A DNA stretch of 64,000 bases from Clostridiales bacterium (GTDB lineage Bacteria > Bacillota > Clostridia > Peptostreptococcales > Acidaminobacteraceae). The DNA lies in contig JASUSA010000008.1 in assembly GCA_030446305.1 (NCBI GenBank), positions 1 to 64,000 of the forward strand. The letters run 5' to 3'. Positions 12,085 through 41,295 of the stretch are shown here, in pieces. Every line of letters begins with the position of its first letter. The stretch's first letter is position 1. Below the pieces are notes generated by a model that saw only the letters and a program-made list of their open reading frames with translations, was not told where the DNA came from and made no database searches. Made by a program: the position numbers and the translations under genes.

Positions 12085-13788
12085 TTATTCATCTTGAAGT
12101 GCGTCGTAACCTCTTTCACCTGTTCTAACTTTGATAACATCTTCCACATCGTAAACGAAGATTTTACCATCGCCAATGTTGCCAGTGTAAACAGCATCAA
12201 TGGCTGTTTTAATTGCCAATTCAACAGGTACTTTACAGATGACGAATTCAACTTTTACTTTTGGCAGCAATGTAATGTCAACTGGAACGCCGCGGTAGAA
12301 TTCGTGGCTGCCTTTTTGCATCCCACAGCCGAGAACTTGTGTCATCGTCATACCAGTAATGCCGATTTTATGCATTGCCGTTTTGACTTTATCAAATTTG
12401 TCAGGACGAATAATCATTGTCACTTTTGTAATCTTAGCATCAGGATGTTTCGTAGAACCTGAATCTTTTCTCGTAACCGGTACCGCCATTTCTTGAGGCA
12501 CCATGCCAGCCGGATACTCAGCTGCTGCTAATGCATGTGTTGAAACTGTGCTGATCATTGGTGTAAAGTCAGCATATGCACTTGCTAAACCATGTTCGTA
12601 TACGTCAAGGCCTGTTACTTCTTCAGCTTCTGAAACGCGAAGACCAATCGTTGCTTTAATAATTGTGAATAAAATACCCATTGTTACAGCAACCCAAAGT
12701 GCAACGGCTACAACACCGATAAGTTGTGTAATGAATAAGCTGGCACCGCCGCCATAGACGAGGCCGCCATCAAGTGCAAAGACACCGACGAGCAGTGTTC
12801 CCAGTGCACCACAGATACCGTGAACGCCAATTGCGCCAACAGGGTCATCAATTTTCAGCACTTTATCAATAAACTCAATACCAAATACGATAACGATACC
12901 TGCAATGATACCGATCATCGCTGCACCAGCTGGCGATACGGCGTCACAGCCTGCTGTAATGGCAACAAGACCTGCAAGCGCACCATTAAGTGTCATAGAT
13001 ACATCAGGCTTTTTATAACGGAACCATGTTACGATCATCGTCGTAAGTGCCGCCATTGCCGCAGCCATATTCGTTGTTACGAAAATATTTGAAGTTGAAA
13101 AAATAACATCATCGCCTACCATGCCAACGGTTGAACCACCGTTGAAACCGAACCAGCCAAACCAGAGAATAAATACACCAAGTGCCCCCATTGGTAAATT
13201 ATGCCCTAAAATCGCTTGCGGTTCGCCTGTTTCACTGTACTTGCCGATACGAGGACCAATCATTTTCGCGCCGACGAGTGCTGCAACACCACCGACCATA
13301 TGAACGACTGTAGAACCTGCAAAATCGTGGAAACCTCTGACTGCTAACCAGCCGCCGCCCCAGATCCAGTGACCTGATACAGGGTAAACAACCGCACTAA
13401 TGAAGAAACTATAAATAACGTATGAAATAAATTTTGTTCTTTCTGCCATAGCACCTGAAACAATTGTCGCTGCTGTTGCACAGAAAACGGTTTGAAAGAT
13501 TAAGAATGCCGGAAGCGGTACACCATCAGGCAGACCGTATTCGCCGAGAACCATTGGATCGAATACGCCAAAGAGTGCGTTGCCTGATCCAAACATGATA
13601 CCAAAACCGATAATCCAGAATGCAGGTGTGCCGATGGAAAAGTCCATCAGGTTTTTCATAATGATGTTCCCCGCATTTTTCGCTCTCGTAAAACCTGCTT
13701 CAACCATTGCAAAACCAGCTTGCATGAAGAATACGAGCGCTGCCGCTATGAGTACCCACATTGTACTTGCCGAGCTATACATTTCCAT
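12085..13788 (-). CDS. Ammonium transporter fused to a C-terminal PII (GlnB/GlnK) domain
   Basis: Amt core (MQAGFAMVEAGFTRAKNAGNIIMKN, WGGGWLA, DFAGSTVVHMVGGVAALVGA) followed by KITKVTMIIRPDKFDKVKTAMHKIGITGMTMTQVLGCGMQKG...LPKVKVEFVICKVPVELAIKTAIDAVYTGNIGDGKIFVYDVEDVIKVRTGERG (PII); start ATG 13788 after GGGAGGG. Confidence 0.93.
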   Translation of the reverse strand: MEMYSSASTMWVLIAAALVFFMQAGFAMVEAGFTRAKNAGNIIMKNLMDFSIGTPAFWIIGFGIMFGSGNALFGVFDPMVLGEYGLPDGVPLPAFLIFQTVFCATAATIVSGAMAERTKFISYVIYSFFISAVVYPVSGHWIWGGGWLAVRGFHDFAGSTVVHMVGGVAALVGAKMIGPRIGKYSETGEPQAILGHNLPMGALGVFILWFGWFGFNGGSTVGMVGDDVIFSTSNIFVTTNMAAAMAALTTMIVTWFRYKKPDVSMTLNGALAGLVAITAGCDAVSPAGAAMIGIIAGIVIVFGIEFIDKVLKIDDPVGAIGVHGICGALGTLLVGVFALDGGLVYGGGASLFITQLIGVVAVALWVAVTMGILFTIIKATIGLRVSEAEEVTGLDVYEHGLASAYADFTPMISTVSTHALAAAEYPAGMVPQEMAVPVTRKDSGSTKHPDAKITKVTMIIRPDKFDKVKTAMHKIGITGMTMTQVLGCGMQKGSHEFYRGVPVDITLLPKVKVEFVICKVPVELAIKTAIDAVYTGNIGDGKIFVYDVEDVIKVRTGERGYDALQDE

Positions 13789-13801
13789 AAATTTCCCTCC
13801 C

Positions 13802-13866
13802 AAAAAAATGGGCGTGCTACCCATTCCCAGACCAATTTCTGAGAATGAATAACACGCCGCTGTGTT
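13802..13866 (-). promoter_or_regulatory. Attenuator leader of amt-PII: candidate ANTAR-target hairpin overlapping an intrinsic terminator
   Basis: Minus strand: AACAC-AGCGGC-GTGTT (13866-13851) overlapping terminator GGCGTGTTATTCATTCTCAGA aattgg TCTGGGAATGGGTAGCACGCC-ATTTTTTT (13858-13802), directly before the RBS. Confidence 0.75.
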
Positions 13867-17951: not shown

Positions 17952-18533
17952 ATGGAGAGAATTTTGGTTGTGTCAAGTTCTGAAAACAGCCAAATACTGT
18001 GTCGAGAACTCTTGTCTTCGTTTCAGGCGCAAATTGTCAATGTCGGCGACGGCAGTGAAGCCAGACGTACGATTCTCAACCAAAGCTTTGATCTCATCCT
18101 TATTAATGCCCCGCTAAAAGACGAATTCGGTCATGAATTAGCTGCGATGTTCTCGCAAAAGACAACAGCCGGCATCATTCTGCTCATCAAAAGCGAACTA
18201 TGCGATCAAATCTCAGAGCGCGTTGAAGATTATGGCGTCGTCTGTGTTCCAAAACCCATTAGCAAATCCTTTTTCTTTCAGGCCGTAAAAATCGTCTCGG
18301 CAACCAGCAAGCGCCTTGTTGATCTTCAAAATGAAAACATTCGCTTGCAGCATAAGATCGAAGATATGCGCATGGTCGACCGCGCTAAATACGCACTTAT
18401 TAAATACCTTAATTTTTCAGAACCCCAGGCACATCGCTATATTGAAAAGCACGCTATGGATATGAGAATTTCCAAGCGGGAAGTTGCCGAAAACATCATT
18501 AAAACATATGATACATGGCGTGATCCAAGTTAA
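17952..18533 (+). CDS. ANTAR-domain antiterminator with degenerate receiver domain
   Basis: N-terminal receiver-like domain (DLILINAPL in place of the phosphoacceptor Asp); C-terminal coiled coil and ANTAR-type KYALIKYLNFSEPQAHRYIEKHAMDMRISKREVAENII; RBS AAGGGGGTG. Confidence 0.88.
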   Translation: MERILVVSSSENSQILCRELLSSFQAQIVNVGDGSEARRTILNQSFDLILINAPLKDEFGHELAAMFSQKTTAGIILLIKSELCDQISERVEDYGVVCVPKPISKSFFFQAVKIVSATSKRLVDLQNENIRLQHKIEDMRMVDRAKYALIKYLNFSEPQAHRYIEKHAMDMRISKREVAENIIKTYDTWRDPS

Positions 18534-26578: not shown

Positions 26579-27835
26579 ATGAATCAAACACCTCAAGGCA
26601 ATCGCATTCACATCGCTTTTTTCGGCAAGACGAATGCCGGCAAATCTTCTCTAATCAATGCCATTACTGAACAAAATATCGCACTTGTATCGGCGATATC
26701 CGGAACGACGACAGATCCCGTCTATAAGGCAATGGAAATATTGCCGCTTGGCCCCGTCATGATGATCGACACAGCCGGTCTCAATGATGGTACAGTATTG
26801 GGGACACTGCGTGAACAGAAGACACTTGACGTTCTCAACAAAACCGACTGTGCACTCATCGTTTTCGATGCAACAGAAGTAGATTCTTCGTTTGCTTTTG
26901 AAAAATCACTTGTCGAGACAATCAAACAAAAGAAACTGCCACTTATCGGCATCTTCAATAAAACGGATCAGCTGACGGCGCAAACACCCGAAACAATTGC
27001 TCAATACTGCGAAGCGCTTTCTAAAGACTTTGACATGCCATTTATTCCCGTATCCGCTGAAACAGGTATGGGCATTGATCGCGTTAAAAAGCAGTTGGCT
27101 TCTTTAATGCCGCACGATGAAGATCGGTTTAAGATTGTAGGCGACCTCATTCATCCGGGAGACTTCGTCGTACTTGTGACGCCCATAGACAAAGCCGCGC
27201 CAAAGGGACGGCTCATTTTACCGCAACAGCAGACGATTCGAGACATTCTCGAAAGCGACGCCATTGCCATCGTCACCAAAGAACACGAACTGCGCGAGAC
27301 GCTCTCGTCTCTCGGCAAAAAACCATCACTGGTGATCACCGATTCTCAGGCATTTTTAAAAGTCGGCGCCGATACGCCAAAGGACATCCCCATGACATCA
27401 TTTTCAATTCTATTTGCACGTTATAAAGGCGACTTAAACAGTCTCGTCGCCGGAGCCGCTGCAATTCGTCATCTCCAAGACGGCGACAAAGTGCTCATCG
27501 CTGAAGGCTGTACACATCATAAGCAGTCTGATGATATCGGCACAGTTAAAATTCCAAGATGGATTCGCCAACTGACCGGCAAGGACATTATCTTTGAGCA
27601 CACATCGGGCGTTTCTTTTACGGATGATTTAAAAGCTTACAAACTCGTCGTCCACTGTGGCGGCTGTATGCTCAATCAGCGTGCAATGCAGCATCGCATT
27701 GACACGGCTGTCAAATATCAAGTGCCCATTGTCAACTACGGCGTCCTCATCGCCTATGTACACGGTATTCTCGATCGTGCACTGGAACCTTTTCCAATGG
27801 CAAAGCGCACATGGGATAAATCAAAGGAGGTATAA
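26579..27835 (+). CDS. hydF: [FeFe]-hydrogenase H-cluster maturation GTPase HydF
   Basis: GKTNAGKSSLINAI, SGTTTDPVYKAMEILPLGPVMMIDTAGLNDG; C-terminal HTSGVSFTDDLKAYKLVVHCGGCMLNQRAMQ. Confidence 0.95.
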   Translation: MNQTPQGNRIHIAFFGKTNAGKSSLINAITEQNIALVSAISGTTTDPVYKAMEILPLGPVMMIDTAGLNDGTVLGTLREQKTLDVLNKTDCALIVFDATEVDSSFAFEKSLVETIKQKKLPLIGIFNKTDQLTAQTPETIAQYCEALSKDFDMPFIPVSAETGMGIDRVKKQLASLMPHDEDRFKIVGDLIHPGDFVVLVTPIDKAAPKGRLILPQQQTIRDILESDAIAIVTKEHELRETLSSLGKKPSLVITDSQAFLKVGADTPKDIPMTSFSILFARYKGDLNSLVAGAAAIRHLQDGDKVLIAEGCTHHKQSDDIGTVKIPRWIRQLTGKDIIFEHTSGVSFTDDLKAYKLVVHCGGCMLNQRAMQHRIDTAVKYQVPIVNYGVLIAYVHGILDRALEPFPMAKRTWDKSKEV

Positions 27836-27837
27836 CA

Positions 27838-28101
27838 ATGGAACATCGCATTGGTATTATCAGCATCATTATCGAAAATGCATCACAAATCGACCGCGTT
27901 AATCACTTACTGACAGAACATGCATCCATTATTGCCGGACGAATGGGACTCCCCAATCCGAACGGGCGCAAAATAAACGTCATTGCCATTATTGTTGACG
28001 GCACAAACGATGACATCGGCAACCTCTCGGGCAAACTCGGCCGTTTAGAAGGCGTTAATGTTAAGTCTGCCGTTTCAAAACAAAGTTACCCTGCGCTATA
28101 A
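27838..28101 (+). CDS. TM1266-family putative iron-only hydrogenase system regulator
   Basis: EHRIGIISIIIENASQIDRVNHLLTEHASIIAGRMGLP...INVIAIIVDGTNDDIGNLSGKLGRLEGVNVKSAVSK; directly after hydF. Confidence 0.88.
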   Translation: MEHRIGIISIIIENASQIDRVNHLLTEHASIIAGRMGLPNPNGRKINVIAIIVDGTNDDIGNLSGKLGRLEGVNVKSAVSKQSYPAL

Positions 28102-30041: not shown

Positions 30042-30659
30042 TTATTTATTGCGGTAATAACTGTGTGCGCAATAAAGCGCACCTGCTGGATTATGCGCCA
30101 AAACGCGATCTTTTGCCACCAGCGTCGTCACCATTGCATCAGAATGCTTATAAAACAGCGAATCGTGGCCAACGCACAAGCCGATGATAATATTGAGTTC
30201 CGTTGCCATTTCATTTAGATAAAGCGCTTGTGCAATGGGATTACACATGGTCTCATAGGTGCCGGGGCGTACTTTTTGAGAATCGGCAAGTCCCATGTGT
30301 TCCTTTGGAATACCGCCTGTCTTGCAAATGACACTGTGTACTTCAAATCCTTCTTTGCGCAGCATCGCTTCATATGTTTTTGCTTCTTGCTTCAAGCCAA
30401 GGCAAAAGGCAATGCCCAAGCGTTTATAGCCCATCTTCTTGCAGAAATTGATGGTCTCACGAACGCGCGGCCACTCGCAGTACCCCTCTGATTCTATTTC
30501 GGCACTCGCTTTATAAAATGATTTCAAGCCTTCTTTTTCATAGAGATCAAGGCTTTTTAAAAGCGTCGTCTGATCTCGCATTGGACAATTTGCGGGCATA
30601 TCGGATTTATCTTCATTTAGACAGCTGGTCTTTGCACACACGGCACAAGTATACGGCAT
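30042..30659 (-). CDS. DUF1847 Cys-rich protein
   Basis: MPYTCAVCAKTSCLNEDKSDMPANCPMRD...; RBS TGGAGG before ATG 30659. Confidence 0.75.
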   Translation of the reverse strand: MPYTCAVCAKTSCLNEDKSDMPANCPMRDQTTLLKSLDLYEKEGLKSFYKASAEIESEGYCEWPRVRETINFCKKMGYKRLGIAFCLGLKQEAKTYEAMLRKEGFEVHSVICKTGGIPKEHMGLADSQKVRPGTYETMCNPIAQALYLNEMATELNIIIGLCVGHDSLFYKHSDAMVTTLVAKDRVLAHNPAGALYCAHSYYRNK

Positions 30660-30838
30660 TTTTTCCTCCATTTCAAAGCACATTCCGTTGTTACGCTGCA
30701 CGGCATTCGATTGCAGCATCGTTAAAATACTGCTGAAAACACTGTTATTGCAAACGTTATCATCATTTTTGCAACCTGATTATAACGCGAATGCCCTGGA
30801 CTGTCAAATGCTATCGCCATGCTAAAATGCTTCCAAAA

Positions 30839-31924
30839 TTATTCTGTCGTCTTAACGCCCATGCCGTCCTGTATTTGGTCGACACCTCTCATAATCCAAA
30901 TTTTATCCGTTGGCAAGTTTATTACCTCAATGCGTTCACCCGACAAGCTGCCAATTTCAATTGGCACCCTAACGGCTGTATGATCTTCAATATAAAAGGC
31001 ATACTGATCTTCGCCAATATGTTTAATTGCCGACAGCGGAAGTGTCATTGCAGATCGCGGTGCTTCCATAAACGCAACTTCACAGGCTATGCCATCTAGG
31101 AGCAAATCATTCACATCCGGAAGTGTCAGTGTTATGTCATACATTTTCGTCACTTCATTTTGAAGAAAACTCAGTGTCTCTACATTGGCATCATATGCTG
31201 TTCCATCAATGGTAACAACGCTTCTGTCAATGGTGTCAAGGCGTTTGAGCTGATCATAAGTCAGTGACGTCTCGATTAGCATACCGCCAGTTTGGATAAT
31301 TTGAACGGCTGTTTGCGACGTTACGCGTTCACCGGCATTTAACTCAAAACCATTGACGATGCCTTCCGCTGGACTCTTTACGGTGTAATCCGTGATGCCC
31401 GCACTTAAAATACGAACCTGTTCTCTGTACGCGGTAGCCGCATTGTCATATTGTCTTGAAAGTGATGAAACCTGGGATTGTGCTGACGAGCGAGTCGAAT
31501 CTGTTGCTGCACCCACTGCATAAAGTGCTTCAATATCAGCCAATTGTTTTTCTGCGTCCTTGAGCTGTATCGACAGGTTGTCCCGCGTCGTTTTCAACCC
31601 GGAAACCGTCGCTTCATAATTGGCTTTCGCCGTTGAATCATCTAGTATATACAGAATATCGCCTGCTTCAACATAGGCACCGTTTTCTACAAAGACTTCT
31701 TTAATCGTGCCGCTGAGCGCCGGTGTTACGGTAAGCACATCGGCTGGTCTTACAGCGCCAATGGTTTTGAACCCATCGGCAAAAACAGTTGTTTCCGCTG
31801 TTCCCGAAGTTACGGCGATCCGATTGTCAACCGGATTTTCATCCGCCAAATTACTTTGACATGCCGTTAGACTTACCAACAGCAACAACAGCCATCCCAT
31901 ACGCCAAATATTATATTTCATCAT
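30839..31924 (-). CDS. RND efflux periplasmic adaptor / membrane fusion lipoprotein
   Basis: Lipobox LTACQSN; TVTPALSGTIKEVFVENGAYVEAGDILYILDDS, SPAEGIVNGFELNAGERV; overlaps the RND gene. Confidence 0.9.
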   Translation of the reverse strand: MMKYNIWRMGWLLLLLVSLTACQSNLADENPVDNRIAVTSGTAETTVFADGFKTIGAVRPADVLTVTPALSGTIKEVFVENGAYVEAGDILYILDDSTAKANYEATVSGLKTTRDNLSIQLKDAEKQLADIEALYAVGAATDSTRSSAQSQVSSLSRQYDNAATAYREQVRILSAGITDYTVKSPAEGIVNGFELNAGERVTSQTAVQIIQTGGMLIETSLTYDQLKRLDTIDRSVVTIDGTAYDANVETLSFLQNEVTKMYDITLTLPDVNDLLLDGIACEVAFMEAPRSAMTLPLSAIKHIGEDQYAFYIEDHTAVRVPIEIGSLSGERIEVINLPTDKIWIMRGVDQIQDGMGVKTTE

Positions 31925-34900
31925 GTGCCTCCTTTTTATCTGAACGCCGCTCAATTAGGTGATACGTCACCGGAATAAAATAGAGCGTCATAATCGTCGT
32001 CACAAGCAGTCCAAAGACGAGTGTAAAACTGAATTGTGCATAATAAACTTCCCTAAAAGCTAACGGCAGTACGCCGCCAATGGTCGTCATCGTCGTTGCC
32101 AATACAGGATTAAATCTTATTTTTCCCGCTTCGACAACAGCCTCATCTAAACTCACCCCTTCTTGTCTCAAGCCATTCATAAAATCAATGAGCACGATTG
32201 CATCATTGACGGCAATTCCAACAAGTGCAACCAATCCCATAAAAGCGTAAAAGCCAAATTCATTCCCCGTGATAACGAGTCCCGTAAAAACACCGATAAA
32301 GGCCATTGGCACCGTTGTGAGAATGGCAAATGGCTGCTTTACTGATTTGAACTGCACCGTTAAAATGACAAAGACCAATAGGATAGCGAGAATCATGGAA
32401 CGCATCAAATCTTTAAAACTGTCCTGTATCTGCGTCACTTCACCGGATAATCTAACAGTGACGCCATCCGGCATTTGAATGCCTGAAAGCTTTTGATCCA
32501 GTTCACTTGTAATTTCAGATGCATTGTAACCATCCATGACATCTGCGGTCACAGTAATAATGCGTTCGCCATCCTGATGGGCAATGGCAGAAACACCTTG
32601 TTCAAAATGATAAGAGGCTACAGCGGCAAGCGGCAGCTTCGTCCCATTCTGCATTGCAATATAAATCGAATCGAGATCAACTGCATTTGTATTGTGAATG
32701 GCCGTGTCAATCACGCGCACATCAATCAACGTCTGTCCTTCTTTAAGCGTTGTTGCAACAGCACCGTTCAACACGCGATTTAGCTGTCTTGCCACTTCAC
32801 CGACAGATAGTCCGTATTGATTCGCCGCGATCGGATCAATCTTCATCACCGTTCGCGGGCCACTGTCTGTTACAGAGACAGCGGCATTGTAAACACCGTC
32901 TATCCCTCTTAAAATTGCCAAATATTGATCGGCCACATTTTTTCCCGCTTCATAATCCTCTGCAGCGAGTTCGATGGCAATAGGCTTGCCGGATGGCGGC
33001 CCTCCCTGTGCAGCCACTGCAATTTCTATCTTGGCATCCGGGATTGCTGCAAAAGCGCGTTCCAAACGCTTTAGCACTGTAAAACCGTTATCTGTCATCA
33101 ACGATTTATCAAAGAACGTCACATTAATCGTCGCCGTATCTGCAGATGCAATACCGCCGATCGCGGTATTAAACACTGCAACAGCAGGTTCTTCAATCAA
33201 AACACGTTCTACAGCAGAAGTCACGCGTCCCGTCTCATCAAGTGTCATTCCCCCTGGTGTATCAACCGTTACCGTCAGACTATTCGGTTCCGCCTGAGGA
33301 AAAAAGTTTACTTTTAATATCCCCAGCGGTATAAAAGCAGCAGTGCCAACGAGTACGACAATGCCCACCAAAATAAGTGAAAGCTGCCGCCAAGGCGATG
33401 TAATCAGCCATGAGAGAATCTTTTCATATCCTTTCACAAGACGTGATGTTTCCATTGACGAACTGCCGAGGCGCCAAAGTTTCAAGGCCATTAAAGTACC
33501 AAAAAAAGCTGATGCCGCAATCGGTAGCCATTTCGTCCCCTCGGAATCATAAAAGGCAATAAAACTCACCAGCATCATAAAAGCCAGCGCCAACAGTTTC
33601 TTTATACGACCGGTTTTAATTGATGCCAGCCGCTTCTTTGAACGTTTCAGCATCACGAGGTAAATCGACGGCGTCACCGTAATTGAAATGAGCAGCGATG
33701 ACAGCAACGCCAAGATAATCGTTCTTGGGATCGTATTGACAAAGGCTCCCATAATGCCGGGCAAAATCGAAAGCGGGAAAAAAGCGGCAACGGTTGTCAT
33801 CGTAGACGCAAGTATGGGCAGCGCTACCTGTGCCACACCATCAAGCGCTGCACGGTAAGGTGTATAGCCCATTCGATACAATCGATCCATATTTTCCATG
33901 ACGATTATGGCGTTGTCCACCAGCAGGCCCAACGCTACAATGAGCCCCAGAATTGCAAAGGTATTGAGCGATATGCCGAGATAGCTTAATAGTCCCAATG
34001 TCAGAAGCAGCGACAGCGGCATTGTAATTGCTACAATCAGTGATTCTTTTAGGCCAATAAACAAGAACAGCACCATGATGACCACCAGCAAACCGGAGCC
34101 TGCGCTCAGTTGGATATTGCTTAAATCACGATTGACATTCACGGCGTTGTCATAGACAATTTCAACCGCGACATCTTTCGGATAAAGTCGGCCGCGCCCT
34201 GCTTCAATCATGGTTTTAACACTAGAACTGGTTCCGATAACATCCGCTCCCTTTTTGCGGTACACGGTCATATACACGCTTTCCTTAGCGACATCGCTTG
34301 TATCAGATTTAAAATAGGTTCGATTAATCAGCCGCTGCGTTTTGATATCATAATGAATATCTGCCAGTTCACCAAGGTAAACAGCCTGACCGCCATTTCC
34401 TGAAACAATGATGTTTTTCATTGCCTCAATATCCGAAATGCGATTATCAATGCTGACAGTCGTCAACTGACCACCGCGTTCAACCGTTCCAACCGGCAAG
34501 TCAACATTGCTCCCAGCAAGTGCATTCATAACCTGATCAAATGTAAAGCCACTGCTTCTGAGTTTATTTTCATCTACGACGACGTGTATTTCCTCTGCCA
34601 CATCGCCCGATAAGGTCACATCATCTACAGCGGGCATCGCATTCACCTCATCAGCAATATCGGATGCAATTTGTGAAAGCGTCGAAATACGATAGGGCCC
34701 ACTGACACTGAATGTCATCAACGGCAGTTCACTGGTTTTAAAAATAACCGCGTCTGGCTTCTCTGCGCCATCAGGTAAATTAACCTCGCCCAGAAGGCTG
34801 TCCGCTTCAAGTTCTTTCTTTTGAATATCCACACTTTCCAAGAAGGTAATGACAACATATGAAAGTCCTTCCGATGATTGTGAAGTTATCTCATCAATCT

Positions 34901-35204
34901 CATCCATTCCCGATAATGCCGTCTCAATCGGATCGGTTACAAGCTGCTCTACATCCAATGCGCCGGCACCCGGATAAGGTGTTTGAATCATCAGCGTCGG
35001 AAAGACAATTTCCGGCAAGGATTCTTTTGGCAACAAATAGGCACTGCTAATCCCTAGCACCAGCAATAAGACGATGAATAGATACGTCATATGTGTGTTA
35101 TGAATAAAATACCCTGCAATTTTACCGAGAAGGTGCATCCTGCCCTGCTCAGCTTTTTGATCTGTTTGTTCTCGATGGTTGTCCTGATCGTTTACATTAC
35201 GCAT
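31911..35204 (-). CDS. RND (AcrB/MdtB-type) efflux transporter, 1097 aa
   Basis: YPGAGALDVEQLVTDPIE, GLIVALGLLVDNAIIVMENMDRL, GLVALVGIAVNDAIVLIDFMN; about 12 TM segments. Confidence 0.95.
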   Translation of the reverse strand: MRNVNDQDNHREQTDQKAEQGRMHLLGKIAGYFIHNTHMTYLFIVLLLVLGISSAYLLPKESLPEIVFPTLMIQTPYPGAGALDVEQLVTDPIETALSGMDEIDEITSQSSEGLSYVVITFLESVDIQKKELEADSLLGEVNLPDGAEKPDAVIFKTSELPLMTFSVSGPYRISTLSQIASDIADEVNAMPAVDDVTLSGDVAEEIHVVVDENKLRSSGFTFDQVMNALAGSNVDLPVGTVERGGQLTTVSIDNRISDIEAMKNIIVSGNGGQAVYLGELADIHYDIKTQRLINRTYFKSDTSDVAKESVYMTVYRKKGADVIGTSSSVKTMIEAGRGRLYPKDVAVEIVYDNAVNVNRDLSNIQLSAGSGLLVVIMVLFLFIGLKESLIVAITMPLSLLLTLGLLSYLGISLNTFAILGLIVALGLLVDNAIIVMENMDRLYRMGYTPYRAALDGVAQVALPILASTMTTVAAFFPLSILPGIMGAFVNTIPRTIILALLSSLLISITVTPSIYLVMLKRSKKRLASIKTGRIKKLLALAFMMLVSFIAFYDSEGTKWLPIAASAFFGTLMALKLWRLGSSSMETSRLVKGYEKILSWLITSPWRQLSLILVGIVVLVGTAAFIPLGILKVNFFPQAEPNSLTVTVDTPGGMTLDETGRVTSAVERVLIEEPAVAVFNTAIGGIASADTATINVTFFDKSLMTDNGFTVLKRLERAFAAIPDAKIEIAVAAQGGPPSGKPIAIELAAEDYEAGKNVADQYLAILRGIDGVYNAAVSVTDSGPRTVMKIDPIAANQYGLSVGEVARQLNRVLNGAVATTLKEGQTLIDVRVIDTAIHNTNAVDLDSIYIAMQNGTKLPLAAVASYHFEQGVSAIAHQDGERIITVTADVMDGYNASEITSELDQKLSGIQMPDGVTVRLSGEVTQIQDSFKDLMRSMILAILLVFVILTVQFKSVKQPFAILTTVPMAFIGVFTGLVITGNEFGFYAFMGLVALVGIAVNDAIVLIDFMNGLRQEGVSLDEAVVEAGKIRFNPVLATTMTTIGGVLPLAFREVYYAQFSFTLVFGLLVTTIMTLYFIPVTYHLIERRSDKKEAHDEI

Positions 35205-36117
35205 AAATACCTCTTTTCAATGTTGACAATTTATAAATCGCTTCTTCCATGCTTTCGGCATACAAGTCCGCTTCTCTTTTCACTTCATCTGCCATCAGGG
35301 ATTCAAGCGCTTGTCCGCTCACAAGGATAAGTGGCTGCTGGCTCTTGGGCATTAATCGAATGGCGTGTATCATCTCATAGACGCCACTCAGATGCTGAGG
35401 CATCGTACACGAGATTCCCAGCACGTGTGGTTCCCATTTTGTAACAGCTGCAATGACTTCAGACGTATCCGTTTGAGTTCCCAGATAATAAGTCGTCCAC
35501 CCAGCCTGCATCAGTTCGTGATGCATCATCCGAAGTCCCATATCATGCAGTTCCTGCGGGGCTGTCACGCCGACAAATGTGGTAAATCCCGCTTCCTTGT
35601 ATGGCTGCCGTTTCGCATACAGCTGCTGAAGTCCTAAATGAATAGCCTCTGTCATAAAATGCTCCTGAAAGACATCGATTTCGCCGCTCGCCCATAGTGC
35701 ACCAATACGATATAGAACCACTTTGAGAATGTGTTCGCAAATTATAATTGTCGTTATGTCGTAATAATGTAGCATGGCAATAAAATGAACAATATCGGAT
35801 AGGTGGCCATTTAAAAGATGTACCATCAATTTTTCGGCCTGCATTTTATAAAATGTGTCAGGACTGACCTTCAATATTTCGGATTGCTCGCGCAGAAGCA
35901 TCTGCATATCTACGGCAATTTCATCCTCTGATACAAGTTCATGCATGGATACATCGAAGATGAGCGCCATTTTTTGGAGCAGCTTTATAGAGGGCATCCG
36001 CGACCCGCTTTCATAATTTGCAATCGCAGGCTGCGTAATGGACAGTGCATGTGCCAACTGCACTTGGCTTAACCCCTTTTGTTTTCGAAAGTACTTTAAT
36101 TGTTCAGAAAATCGCAT
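35197..36117 (-). CDS. XRE-HTH transcriptional regulator fused to a CarH/MerR-type cobalamin-binding module
   Basis: N-term MRFSEQLKYFRKQKGLSQVQLAHALSITQPAIANYESGSRMPS (XRE); ALWASGEIDVFQEHF (W-x9-EH); TAPQELHDMGLRMMHHELMQAGWTTYYLGTQTDTSEVI (ExHxxG); LGISCTM...LILVSGQALES. Confidence 0.88.
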   Translation of the reverse strand: MRFSEQLKYFRKQKGLSQVQLAHALSITQPAIANYESGSRMPSIKLLQKMALIFDVSMHELVSEDEIAVDMQMLLREQSEILKVSPDTFYKMQAEKLMVHLLNGHLSDIVHFIAMLHYYDITTIIICEHILKVVLYRIGALWASGEIDVFQEHFMTEAIHLGLQQLYAKRQPYKEAGFTTFVGVTAPQELHDMGLRMMHHELMQAGWTTYYLGTQTDTSEVIAAVTKWEPHVLGISCTMPQHLSGVYEMIHAIRLMPKSQQPLILVSGQALESLMADEVKREADLYAESMEEAIYKLSTLKRGIYA

Positions 36118-36147: not shown

Positions 36148-36175
36148 TACAAGGAAATGGCATCATTCCCTTGTA
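36148..36175. promoter_or_regulatory. Inverted repeat in the leader of the XRE-B12/RND operon
   Basis: TACAAGGAAATG-gcat-CATTCCCTTGTA (11/12 arm match). Confidence 0.65.
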
Positions 36176-36264
36176 CGTTATGATTCCTGTATTAAAGCTA
36201 TACAAATAAGCCAATTATTTAATCCAATTGATACCCATTTTCATCACAGGCTATCACACAAATA

Positions 36265-36293
36265 AAAAAATATCACATAATGTGATATTTTTT
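36265..36293. promoter_or_regulatory. Perfect 29-nt palindrome, candidate operator upstream of the XRE-B12/RND operon
   Basis: AAAAAATATCACAT-A-ATGTGATATTTTTT, with extra ATCACA copies at 36243 and 36253. Confidence 0.7.
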
Positions 36294-37379: not shown

Positions 37380-38303
37380 CTAAATGACATCCTTTAAGCA
37401 AGTCATGCCATCCTGAGACCACCGCCTGTACTTGCAATTCCAGCAAACGCCTGAAACAGCGTCAATACATTCTTCGTCCATATCTTTTACAAATGTTTGA
37501 CACGCTTTTTTTGGCGCCTGCAGCTTATACCCTTTCAAGAGATTATAGTCAAATCGCTCAATAAAACCGGCACCCATTTGCGTCTGCCTGATCACGCGCT
37601 TGTCCAGTGCAACATAGCCTTGCGGTGTTTCATCGACGAGAAGGGTAAAACGATGATCTTTTAAAATCACTTTTGTCGGCTGATAAATGAGAATTTCAGC
37701 CGTTTCAGGCACTGATGCCCCCTTCGTCGTCTCAATTAATTCAATCTCATTGGCAGTTTGCAGTGCTTTTGCTGTGAAGCGTTGGTTTTCAACATGCTTC
37801 AAAAGGCCCTTTGCCTCGCCGTGATTGCCGGAAAGTCTTAGCCCAACACCTGCCATTGCACCAATGATTCCATCCCCTGTACCGCCATGTTCGGAGAGGT
37901 GTATGCCCAGATAGTACGCGAGGTCATATGCCGCCTGTTTTGTCAGCACTTCTGTCGTTGCGCGCTGTCCAAAATGGATGAGCATATTTTTTTCATTAAT
38001 CGTCGGATTCCCGATCATGCAAAATCCAGGATCTGAACCGGCGGCTCTGAATTTTCGAATGATGTCTATGCTGATATCTTGTATCAGGCGCATGGAACAT
38101 CTTGGCGCTTCACCTTCGAGACACATGGAACTATTGTGCGAAGTATAGGGAATATCTTCATGAATTAGCAATTGGTGCCTGGTAATATGATGGCATTTTC
38201 CAATGCCCTGTGCAGCAATTTCCCGTTTAATACGTTCAACCAATTCACCTGTTCCAATCGAATCGACATTGTCCGTATCGTCCAGGCAGAGAAAGAACTT
38301 CAT
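37380..38303 (-). CDS. TiaS-like (tRNA-Ile2 agmatinylcytidine synthetase-related) protein, last gene of ABC transporter operon
   Basis: MKFFLCLDDTDNVDSIGTGELVERIKREI resembles the TiaS N-terminal hDDTDS motif; HGGTGDGIIGAMAGVGLRLSGNHGEAKG; C-terminal Cys motif CIDAVSGVCWNCKYRRWSQDGMTC. Confidence 0.6.
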   Translation of the reverse strand: MKFFLCLDDTDNVDSIGTGELVERIKREIAAQGIGKCHHITRHQLLIHEDIPYTSHNSSMCLEGEAPRCSMRLIQDISIDIIRKFRAAGSDPGFCMIGNPTINEKNMLIHFGQRATTEVLTKQAAYDLAYYLGIHLSEHGGTGDGIIGAMAGVGLRLSGNHGEAKGLLKHVENQRFTAKALQTANEIELIETTKGASVPETAEILIYQPTKVILKDHRFTLLVDETPQGYVALDKRVIRQTQMGAGFIERFDYNLLKGYKLQAPKKACQTFVKDMDEECIDAVSGVCWNCKYRRWSQDGMTCLKDVI

Positions 38304-39403
38304 AACTGTCCCTCCTGATAATCCTTAGGCAACCGCATCGTTTCGCCACGCATAATGGCTTGATACATGTCGTCTGTTAAATTGAATTCAAACAGCGTTT
38401 CATAAAATTGCCGAACCTCATCCTGCAAATCAACATCTGCAAAGCGATCCGGATATAAATCATTTGCAACCCATAAAATCGCAAGCGGCGTTTCAATAGA
38501 TGTTTTATGCCCCCATCGGCTTATGCCAATCGGCATTTGCTTGACTTCGCGATTTTTCACGGCATCGATAAACTGCCATTGCGGATTCGTCAGGATGTAC
38601 TCGGAGACGCCGCTTTCATTACAGTAAATAACCGCCGGATTCCAAAGAATGATTTGCTCTAAATTCGTGTAATATTTATCACCGTCTTTTTCAAGATCCG
38701 CACCAAGGGAAACATTTACGCCGCCTGCAACTTTCATCCAATCTGCCGGCAGCGTGTCACTGGCAACTGTACAGTTAGCCTCATTGATCGAATGGTAGAC
38801 ACGCACTTTCTCGTCCTCTGTCAGCGTCTCTAAATGCGTCTCAACCAGTGTGACAATACGATCGTAAAAAGTTGTATATGCCGCTGCTTCATCTTCGGCA
38901 TCCAACAATTTTCCCAACATGGTCACGACTTCTTTTTCTTCGGCCATATTTTGAAAATCTACAACAAAATAAGGAATACCGAATTTATCAAGTTGTTCGG
39001 TTTGCTTGTCATCATAGTAAATGCTCATTGATATTAAAGCAACATCTATAGACTGATCGAGCAGCGTTTCCATATTAATCTGACCACTGCTTACCGCCAT
39101 TACGGCATCGCCTATCGTCGGCACCAGTTCATTCAGTAAAACATCACGCTTTAAACCGTTGTTTACGGCGACAATTCGATCACCGCGGTCGAGCATGCTC
39201 ACCATGTGACCAGACACGGCATATAATGCAGCAATGTGCTCAGGATTTTTTGGCAAGGTAAGTGTTCTGCCTGCACTATCTGTTACCGTTACAACGGCAG
39301 GGTTGTCTGCTGCGTTATCTGTATGCTGTGCCTCAGGTTTTGCGGCACATCCCGATACTGCCAAAAGGAGAATCAGTCCCAATATTGCAAGTTTTCTTTT
39401 CAT
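38300..39403 (-). CDS. ABC transporter substrate-binding lipoprotein (PeriBP_2, BtuF/FepB type)
   Basis: Lipobox AVSGCAAK; VTVTDSAGRTLTLPKNPEHIAALYAVSGHMVSMLDRGDRIVAV. Confidence 0.88.
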   Translation of the reverse strand: MKRKLAILGLILLLAVSGCAAKPEAQHTDNAADNPAVVTVTDSAGRTLTLPKNPEHIAALYAVSGHMVSMLDRGDRIVAVNNGLKRDVLLNELVPTIGDAVMAVSSGQINMETLLDQSIDVALISMSIYYDDKQTEQLDKFGIPYFVVDFQNMAEEKEVVTMLGKLLDAEDEAAAYTTFYDRIVTLVETHLETLTEDEKVRVYHSINEANCTVASDTLPADWMKVAGGVNVSLGADLEKDGDKYYTNLEQIILWNPAVIYCNESGVSEYILTNPQWQFIDAVKNREVKQMPIGISRWGHKTSIETPLAILWVANDLYPDRFADVDLQDEVRQFYETLFEFNLTDDMYQAIMRGETMRLPKDYQEGQL

Positions 39404-40219
39404 TTAGATGCCTCTTTCCGTGCGAATGGGCACAATATGTGATTGCGGTTTTTCAGCCTCTTCTGCTGTAAAATGTAATACCTGCGTTCCCAATCGATAA
39501 ACACGTCTGATGTTGTCAACGGTCAGAACGGTTTCCGGCGCCCCTTCTGAAACGACAGTCCCCGCTTCGAGCAGTACCGCCCGCGTTTTCACGCCTCTTT
39601 GTGCAAAGTAAAATGCATGATTCGGATCATGCGTTGACATAACGATGCCATGCGATGATGTCAGCATCATCTCGCTGATATGCTCAAGCACCATCATTTC
39701 ATTTTTTAAATCCAGTGATGCAGTCGGCTCATCCAGCAATTGAAAAACAGCGCCTTGGACAAGACCTCTGGCAATGCGTACCAATTGCCTTTCACCGCCA
39801 CTGAGTGTATGATACATTTGGTCTGCAAGATGATGGATGTCAAGGGCCTTTAAAACCGCCACTGCCAGTGCACGGTCTTTGTCCCCAGGTACGTCAAAAC
39901 GTCCCAAATAAGGTGTTCGTCCCATTAATACAACTTCTCGCGCTGCAAACGGAAAATTAACTTCATCCTTTTGCGGCATATAGGCAATGTGCCTTGCGCG
40001 TTCGGCATCGCGCATCTCACTTACGGGCATCCCTTCAATTTCTATGGAGCCGTCAAAACTGCCTTCAAAACCGCTAATACAGTTGAGCATTGTCGTCTTG
40101 CCGCTGCCGTTTGGCCCTAACAGGCAGACGAGTTCACCCTGTTCAACTGCTGTTGATATATCGTCCAATATGATTTGGTGTCCATACTGAAAGCTCAAAT
40201 GCTTGATGCTCAACGTCAT
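39404..40219 (-). CDS. FecE/BtuD-type ABC transporter ATP-binding protein
   Basis: MTLSIKHLSFQYGHQIILDDI; LLGPNGSGKTTMLN; LSGGERQLVRIARGLVQ; QLLDEPTASLD. Confidence 0.93.
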   Translation of the reverse strand: MTLSIKHLSFQYGHQIILDDISTAVEQGELVCLLGPNGSGKTTMLNCISGFEGSFDGSIEIEGMPVSEMRDAERARHIAYMPQKDEVNFPFAAREVVLMGRTPYLGRFDVPGDKDRALAVAVLKALDIHHLADQMYHTLSGGERQLVRIARGLVQGAVFQLLDEPTASLDLKNEMMVLEHISEMMLTSSHGIVMSTHDPNHAFYFAQRGVKTRAVLLEAGTVVSEGAPETVLTVDNIRRVYRLGTQVLHFTAEEAEKPQSHIVPIRTERGI

Positions 40220-40230
40220 GCGCTTCCCCC

Positions 40231-41295
40231 TTACCAATTTCGCCCCTTTGTCCTTCTCAAGAGGAATACGTAGAACGGCGCGCCAACAAGCGCTGTAATA
40301 ATACCGATAGGCATCTCTGCAGATGAAATACTTCTGGCAAAGATATCAACGATGACCAGAAAGCCGCCGCCAAGCGCAAAAGAAAGCGGCAACAGCGTTC
40401 GATAATCTGAACCAATAAGCATTCGAATCATATGCGGCATAACGAGTCCAATCCATCCGATCGTACCCGAAACAGCTACTGCGGCAGCCGTCATAAGCGC
40501 ACTGCACGCAATCAGAATGCCCTTTGTACGCCGAATATTTACGCCCAGTGAAAAAGCTTCTAAATCTCCCAGCGACAGTACATTCATCCGCCAGCGCATC
40601 AGGTAAATAACAAAAAAACTGATGCTAATTGGAAAAATAGCGATCATCAACTCCCGGTATCCTGTATTCGCCAAACTTCCCATCAGCCAAAAAACAATAC
40701 CCGGTAGCTCATCATAAGGATCGGCTATGTATTTACCGAAAGAAACAAGCGCTGAAAACACCGATGATACAATGACACCACCCAATACGAGCATAATGGT
40801 AGGCGTTGACCGATAAGCCGATGCAATTCGATAGCTCATCCATACAGCGAGCAAACCAAATGAAAACGCCAGCAAAATAACAGCGCCATAACGGCCATTG
40901 AAAAAGATAAATCCCAACACCGCACCAAAACTGGCACCATTGCTCACGCCAAGCATGCCTGCATCAACAAGTGGATTTCGAAAGATTCCCTGCAGCACCG
41001 CACCGCTTACAGCCAGTGCGCCACCAACGAAAAAGCCAAGAATAGCGCGCGGCAAACGTATCTGAAAAATTACACCTGCCACCACATCCTGTACATCATA
41101 ATGCCAGGTGGTTATCCCCAGCCACAATCGCTGCAGCACTTCTATAAACGATATCGGATAACGTCCGAGGAACAGTGCCGCGAGCATTGCTGCAAAAGGC
41201 AGCAATGCTATGCAAACGCTGATCATTCGCAATCGTGTTTTACGATGATTTGTCAGACTATTTCGATTTGACAACCCAAACGACCCCCACAACAA
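40231..41295 (-). CDS. FecCD/BtuC-family ABC permease
   Basis: LPRAILGFFVGGALAVSGAVLQGIFRNPLVDAGMLGVSNGASFGAV; GTIGWIGLVMPHMIRMLIGSDYRTLLPLS. Confidence 0.93.
   Translation of the reverse strand: MLWGSFGLSNRNSLTNHRKTRLRMISVCIALLPFAAMLAALFLGRYPISFIEVLQRLWLGITTWHYDVQDVVAGVIFQIRLPRAILGFFVGGALAVSGAVLQGIFRNPLVDAGMLGVSNGASFGAVLGFIFFNGRYGAVILLAFSFGLLAVWMSYRIASAYRSTPTIMLVLGGVIVSSVFSALVSFGKYIADPYDELPGIVFWLMGSLANTGYRELMIAIFPISISFFVIYLMRWRMNVLSLGDLEAFSLGVNIRRTKGILIACSALMTAAAVAVSGTIGWIGLVMPHMIRMLIGSDYRTLLPLSFALGGGFLVIVDIFARSISSAEMPIGIITALVGAPFYVFLLRRTKGRNW

Follow-up and report, generated by a model that had tools for sequence, protein, structure and literature searches.

An XRE-type regulator with a CarH-like cobalamin-binding domain heads a conserved RND efflux operon with a predicted operator

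The window analyzed here, a 64,000-nucleotide stretch of contig JASUSA010000008.1 from a Clostridiales bacterium, raises the question of what a B12-binding regulator does at the head of an efflux operon and whether light or cobalamin itself is its signal. Most work on B12 photoreceptors, in which this type of domain serves other bacteria as a green-light sensor, has concerned MerR-type regulators that act on carotenoid genes. According to the original prediction, the CarH-type B12 sensor at the head of the RND operon carries an XRE helix-turn-helix (HTH) in place of the MerR HTH, and the domain, fold, motif, synteny, and operator evidence agrees. Fusions of light-responsive cobalamin domains to HTH domains are mentioned in general terms in the SignatureFinder paper (PMC11796333), whose text does not name XRE and does not describe the operon, the operator, or the efflux link. 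Apart from such general mentions of HTH fusions, we found no description of XRE-B12 regulators in the open-access PMC literature. In our judgment, the best explanation is an adenosylcobalamin (AdoCbl)-dependent dark repressor of the efflux pump that would be released by light, a reading we hold with slightly better than even confidence.

Domain architecture and cobalamin pocket of the regulator

The regulator gene (positions 35197 to 36117, minus strand; 306 amino acids plus stop) was defined by its open reading frame (ORFs were called mechanically) and translation and was characterized using Pfam and AlphaFold2. Three Pfam domains were detected on the minus strand, each above its gathering cutoff: the XRE helix-turn-helix HTH_3 (residues 7 to 61; 35935 to 36099; E = 2.9e-16), the four-helix cap B12-binding_2 (residues 121 to 166; 35620 to 35757; E = 5.9e-8), and the Rossmann cobalamin-binding domain B12-binding (residues 181 to 293; 35239 to 35577; E = 1.4e-14). 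These are the N-terminal XRE HTH and the B12 sensor proposed originally. HTH_3/XRE is the only DNA-binding domain in the Pfam results, and the MerR winged helix of CarH and LitR is absent. PADLOC matches span the HTH region (up to residue 114 in some models), and an identity as an anti-phage regulator was rejected.

The AlphaFold2 model has a mean pLDDT of 89.8 and a pTM of 0.71. In a comparison of backbones only, with the cofactor absent from the model, the top ten PDB fold matches comprised CtMerR of Chloracidobacterium (dark and light states), photocobilins, and Thermus LitR, all of which are reported to be light responsive (PMC11796333). CtMerR and the photocobilins (8jbs/8jbt, 8j2w-y) matched best, but CtMerR has a MerR HTH where the regulator has an XRE HTH, and the photocobilins carry biliverdin. 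The profile and structure check suggested for the B12 domains thus placed the Pfam matches over their cutoffs and the predicted fold among light-responsive cobalamin domains. PDB sequence matches include TtCarH (5c8a/5c8d), TtLitR (3whp), and CtMerR (8jbs). The NCBIfam CarH profile (NF052513) scored 44.8 bits and did not reach its cutoff of 400, and corrin_MtgC_2 scored 47.5 bits. The corrinoid methyl carriers MtgC, MttC, and MetH share the B12-binding_2 and B12-binding domains with the regulator, but they lack an HTH, and the aligned 1y80 chain lacks the Trp and Glu-His residues of the cap. An MttC/MtgC-type methyl carrier was ruled out by the HTH and the Trp/Glu-His cap.

Like class I CarH/LitR proteins (Thermus thermophilus CarH and Bacillus megaterium LitR), the regulator has an N-terminal DNA-binding domain, the Trp-x9-Glu-His and ExHxxG motifs, and the corresponding fold, and it is predicted to be an autoregulated dark repressor. 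Both motifs had been read from the sequence and were recovered as W142-x9-E152-H153 and E189-L-H191-D-M-G194, the latter with the axial His. We aligned 65 distinct full-length XRE-B12 proteins, gathered through a family-wide search and a scan of GTDB genomes, with hosts in Clostridia-type Bacillota and Spirochaetota. Trp142 (35692 to 35694, minus strand) is equivalent to CarH Trp131, which stacks on the adenosyl group (PMC10442372), and is conserved in 65 of 65 proteins. Glu152-His153 (35659 to 35664, minus strand) is equivalent to CarH Glu141-His142, with Glu-His in 64 of 65, and His191 (35545 to 35547, minus strand; His in 65 of 65) is the predicted lower axial Co ligand (CarH His177). As aligned, these motifs are conserved far beyond chance. 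The published B12 motif is E/DxHx2Gx41SxTx22-27GG (PMC8156234); in the regulator, the spacing from the ExHxxG Gly to SxT (S236-C-T238) is 41, and the final GG is represented by S267-G268.

The residue after the motif Trp is Ala, as originally noted (Ala143; 35689 to 35691, minus strand), at the position of CarH His132, the Co ligand after photolysis. The suggestion that light responsiveness might differ for this reason held for the substitution and not for its peculiarity: this position is His in none of the 65 proteins (Ala in 6), so the ligand switch of CarH is absent throughout, and light responses occur without His132 in CtMerR and the photocobilins (PMC11796333). Glu, which occupies the position in 45 of the 65 relatives, would suit a redox or oxygen sensor in which the repressor switches once its bound cob(II)alamin is oxidized or upon exposure to O2. 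The photochemistry of CarH is dependent on O2 and on Co redox (PMC10442372), and the hosts are mostly anaerobes. The recurrent neighbors of XRE-B12 genes, however, include light-repair genes and not recognizable oxygen-defense genes, and we consider a sensor of this kind improbable.

Two elements of the SignatureFinder light signature, GxxW (G139-W142) and EH (E152-H153), are present in the regulator. The other two, GxxH and GxxxP, are altered: Gln188 replaces the Gly (Q188-xx-H191) and Asp217 the Pro (G213-xxx-D217), so that two of the four published signature residues, both shared by CtMerR and the photocobilins, are lost. The Pro is also gone in the two nearest kin (Ala and Ser there), while 58 of the 65 proteins retain it and 28 carry the complete signature. 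In CtMerR, the contribution of the Gly comes from its backbone, and the Pro contacts the adenosyl group of the adjacent subunit (PMC11796333), which makes loss of the Pro more worrying than that of the Gly. Judged from the alignment, the actual departure of this regulator from the light signature is therefore Gln188 plus Asp217, not the missing His.

These losses (of Pro217 and Gly188) might also reflect a B12-independent repressor, in which ligand control was lost in this branch (compare CarA and class II LitR) and a partner or another signal, such as the pump substrate, took over; CarA binds B12 without needing it (PMC8156234). Despite long divergence, however, every side chain of the cap and the Rossmann motif that contacts the cobalt or the adenosyl group has been kept, and we regard this alternative as very unlikely.

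The pump operon and its predicted operator

The regulator gene is followed on the minus strand by genes for an RND efflux transporter (31911 to 35204; 1,097 amino acids; ACR_tran, E = 5.1e-181) and an RND periplasmic adaptor, a membrane fusion lipoprotein (30839 to 31954; TIGR01730 RND_mfp, over its cutoff), which together provide the AcrB-type permease and periplasmic adaptor of an RND efflux system. The predicted overlaps were found: the regulator stop and the RND start share 8 nucleotides (35197 to 35204), and, from the ORF coordinates, the RND gene runs into the adaptor ORF. Inspection by eye of the neighboring ORFs in the window revealed no outer-membrane channel gene. Fusibacter paucivorans DSM 12116 has a near-identical locus (85%, 89%, and 82% identity for the regulator, RND transporter, and adaptor, respectively), which places the source of the window in the genus Fusibacter. 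A gene for a DUF1847 protein (30042 to 30719, minus strand) lies just downstream of the adaptor gene, as it does in F. paucivorans, and is possibly part of the operon.

Conservation, genome uniqueness, and dyad enrichment point to a primary operator upstream of the XRE-B12-RND-adaptor operon, ATATCACA-TTA-TGTGATAT (36270 to 36288), with the core ATCAC-N5-GTGAT. The copy in the window, ATATCACATTATGTGATAT, is a perfect palindrome conserved in F. paucivorans. In a pattern search of the window's genome and that of F. paucivorans, the operator copy was the sole match to the extended palindrome with 0 or 1 mismatch, which points to a dedicated, autoregulated operon. Two further half-sites on the minus strand (36242 to 36258), TGTGATA (36258 to 36252) and TGTGATG (36248 to 36242), lie 10 bp apart in a promoter block conserved in F. 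paucivorans. A second inverted repeat (36148 to 36175) is not conserved there and was rejected as the operator. Between the operator and the regulator gene, the coding strand shows no match to the sigma-70 promoter consensus, so that repression, as opposed to activation, is an assumption here. No cobalamin riboswitch or other Rfam element reached the gathering threshold in the window, and matches in the leader were at chance level only.

The same motif recurs across the family. The top hexamer in the 300-bp upstream regions of XRE-B12 genes was GTGATA (52 occurrences versus 10.2 expected from dinucleotide shuffles of these regions; z = 14.7), followed by ATCACA. With promoters of other ORFs from these loci as controls, GTGATA was present within 200 bp upstream in 34 of 65 XRE-B12 loci versus 72 of 551 control promoters (Fisher P = 4e-12), and ATCAC-N5-GTGAT was present in 12 of 65 XRE-B12 promoters versus 3 of 551 controls. 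The 26 printed ATCAC-N5-GTGAT sites represent 13 dyads, as both strands were counted. Over 970 kb, 21 such dyads were detected, 15 of them intergenic; all 15 lie upstream of XRE-B12, upstream of a FAS1-XRE-B12 operon, or in the divergent region between XRE-B12 and B12-FtsX genes, in loci that are partly close kin and represent about eight independent lineages. ATCAC-N5-GTGAT is newly proposed here as the putative XRE-B12 operator, a palindrome unlike the 11-bp direct repeats of CarH/LitR (PMC8156234).

Family distribution and gene neighborhoods

With its three domains, the W, EH, and H residues, and a GTGAT-type operator, the regulator is not a one-off of its genome but belongs to a family most often partnered by efflux-type systems. 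This family is patchy, with full-length matches at E ≤ 1e-30 in only 4 of 398 evenly drawn genomes of the phylum. The XRE-B12-RND-adaptor operon is conserved within one taxonomic family, in which three operon clades are common to the regulator and pump trees. The RND pumps linked to XRE-B12 in that family form one clade (100/100; 14 entries, including two unlinked and two at contig edges). Among 13 RND genes at least 44% identical to that of the window, ten are directly linked to XRE-B12 and one (G016) is probably split from it by a contig end; the remaining two are at a contig end and unlinked (G032), respectively. The XRE-B12-associated pumps of spirochaetes sit in a separate RND clade, which implies two or more origins of the association and rules out one origin for all linkages.

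Recurrent partners were counted over 64 loci as raw locus counts, kin included, with representatives confirmed by Pfam. They were MacB/FtsX-type ABC exporters (14 loci), RND plus adaptor (12; nine codirectional with XRE-B12 and three, in spirochaetes, divergent), chemotaxis receptors (11; six directly divergent), fasciclin-domain (FAS1) proteins (10), photolyase (7), DUF1295 (7), and DUF2177 (6). The seven photolyase loci represent five lineages, with about 0.2 expected (7 photolyases in 34 Mb; rough Poisson P of about 2e-6). UvdE and RudS genes occur in two loci (L046 and L037). In L037, they directly follow XRE-B12-RND-adaptor and precede DAK2/DegV, DUF1295, and DUF2177 genes. In spirochaetes, the operon divergent from XRE-B12 in L089 is adaptor-RND-TolC-photolyase, and the photolyase start overlaps the XRE-B12 stop in L069. 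RudS genes are reported to be typical of light-responsive operons, one of them under LitR control (PMC11417400), phrB in Pseudomonas is controlled by LitR homologs (PMC9758184), and heliorhodopsin genes are also flanked by DUF2177 and photolyase genes (PMC11109279). The photolyase gene of the window's genome lies on another contig with no operator nearby, which leaves relatives as the sole source of the light link for this operon; a search near photolyase genes of the family genomes found no operator for Fusibacter.

These neighborhoods also bear on a corrinoid sensor, by which the regulator would gauge AdoCbl or another cobamide in the dark and tune the pump to B12 status, light having no physiological part. 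The two altered signature residues, the many B12-regulated genes of the genome, and a habitat that may be dark would fit this reading. Against it, the adenosyl-pocket Trp and Glu-His are retained in nearly all relatives, genes for photolyase, UvdE, and RudS are found repeatedly next to XRE-B12 genes, and no B12 synthesis or uptake gene was recognized among the recurrent neighbors. We judge a pure corrinoid sensor unlikely, although less so than the redox and B12-independent alternatives.

Other arrangements recur as well. A FAS1 gene directly precedes XRE-B12 in nine loci (L026, 8060 to 9097; L029; L032; L033; L035; L036; L074; L083; and L086) and is divergent from it in a tenth (L072); ATCAC-N5-GTGAT heads the FAS1 operon in three of these loci. 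In L023 (2595 to 4455), L030, L052, L059, L064, L067, and L079, the genes divergent from XRE-B12 encode a small B12-binding protein and, after it, a MacB/FtsX exporter; the small protein of L023 matches PF02310, with no HTH or B12-binding_2 match at E ≤ 1e-5. Methyl-accepting chemotaxis receptors divergent from XRE-B12 (L047, L050, L053, L057, L066, and L071) possibly link B12 or light sensing to motility. In Alkaliphilus serpentinus (L073, 6247 to 7773, minus strand), the divergent gene encodes a phytoene-desaturase-like FAD amine oxidase, named by Pfam only as Amino_oxidase.

A possible light-released repressor of efflux

The preferred reading is that of a one-component, autoregulating, AdoCbl-dependent dark repressor in which an XRE DNA-binding domain is joined to a CarH-type cobalamin domain. 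In the dark, the regulator would bind AdoCbl, with His191 below the cobalt and Trp142 and Glu152 around the adenosyl group, oligomerize, and occupy ATCAC-N5-GTGAT and the extra half-sites, keeping the XRE-B12-RND-adaptor operon off. Light would cleave the cobalt-carbon bond (with the same effect expected from loss of AdoCbl), the oligomer would leave the DNA, and the RND pump would be made. B12 binding and autoregulation are likely. Release by light is suggested by the fold, the pocket, and the neighborhoods of relatives. The original proposal that efflux may respond to cobalamin, corrinoids, or light fits the evidence overall, with light its less certain part: given Gln188 and Asp217, a light response of this particular regulator is plausible.

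AdoCbl is probably available in the host, whose genome has six cobalamin riboswitches and two kinds of corrinoid adenosyltransferase. We take Fusibacter to be an anaerobe. Full release of TtCarH requires O2 and His132 (PMC10442372), and release of this type counts against the light reading, since anaerobic Fusibacter would have neither.

The natural role of the system is probably protection of an anaerobe from light-related damage, for example, by export of photosensitizing tetrapyrroles or damaged compounds. Protoporphyrin is a substrate exported by Escherichia coli MacAB, without which porphyrin-loaded cells become more light sensitive (PMC4263509); photosensitizer export would explain why RND and MacB-type exporters both occur beside XRE-B12. 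Whereas CarH/LitR proteins control carotenoid genes, XRE-B12 regulators are predicted to control efflux, and the family and its predicted operator suggest that some anaerobic bacteria turn on efflux once light destroys their B12. We tentatively propose, at a little short of even confidence, a separate class of XRE-based B12 photoreceptor repressors without the CarH His switch, which would couple light to RND/MacB-type efflux and UV-damage repair in Clostridia-type bacteria and spirochaetes. If so, a light-sensing cobalamin domain has moved onto the commonest bacterial repressor scaffold; in anaerobes, it operates with no His switch and perhaps with no oxygen, and the genes under its control are those of drug-type efflux pumps. 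RND pumps would then have a physiological role in bacteria without an outer membrane, and compact XRE-based green-light switches with a defined operator would be available for optogenetics in anaerobes.

Three other regions of the window deserve mention. A gene at 37380 to 38303 (minus strand), joined to an iron-type ABC transporter operon (38300 to 41295), weakly matches the archaeal tRNA(Ile2) agmatinylcytidine synthetase TiaS (E = 1.4e-6; 27 bits versus a cutoff of 600). An ammonium transporter fused to a P-II domain (12085 to 13824, minus strand) is encoded near two glutamine synthetase-like genes and an ANTAR response regulator (17952 to 18533). The hydrogenase maturase HydF is encoded ahead of a TM1266-like hydrogenase regulator (26579 to 28101, plus strand).
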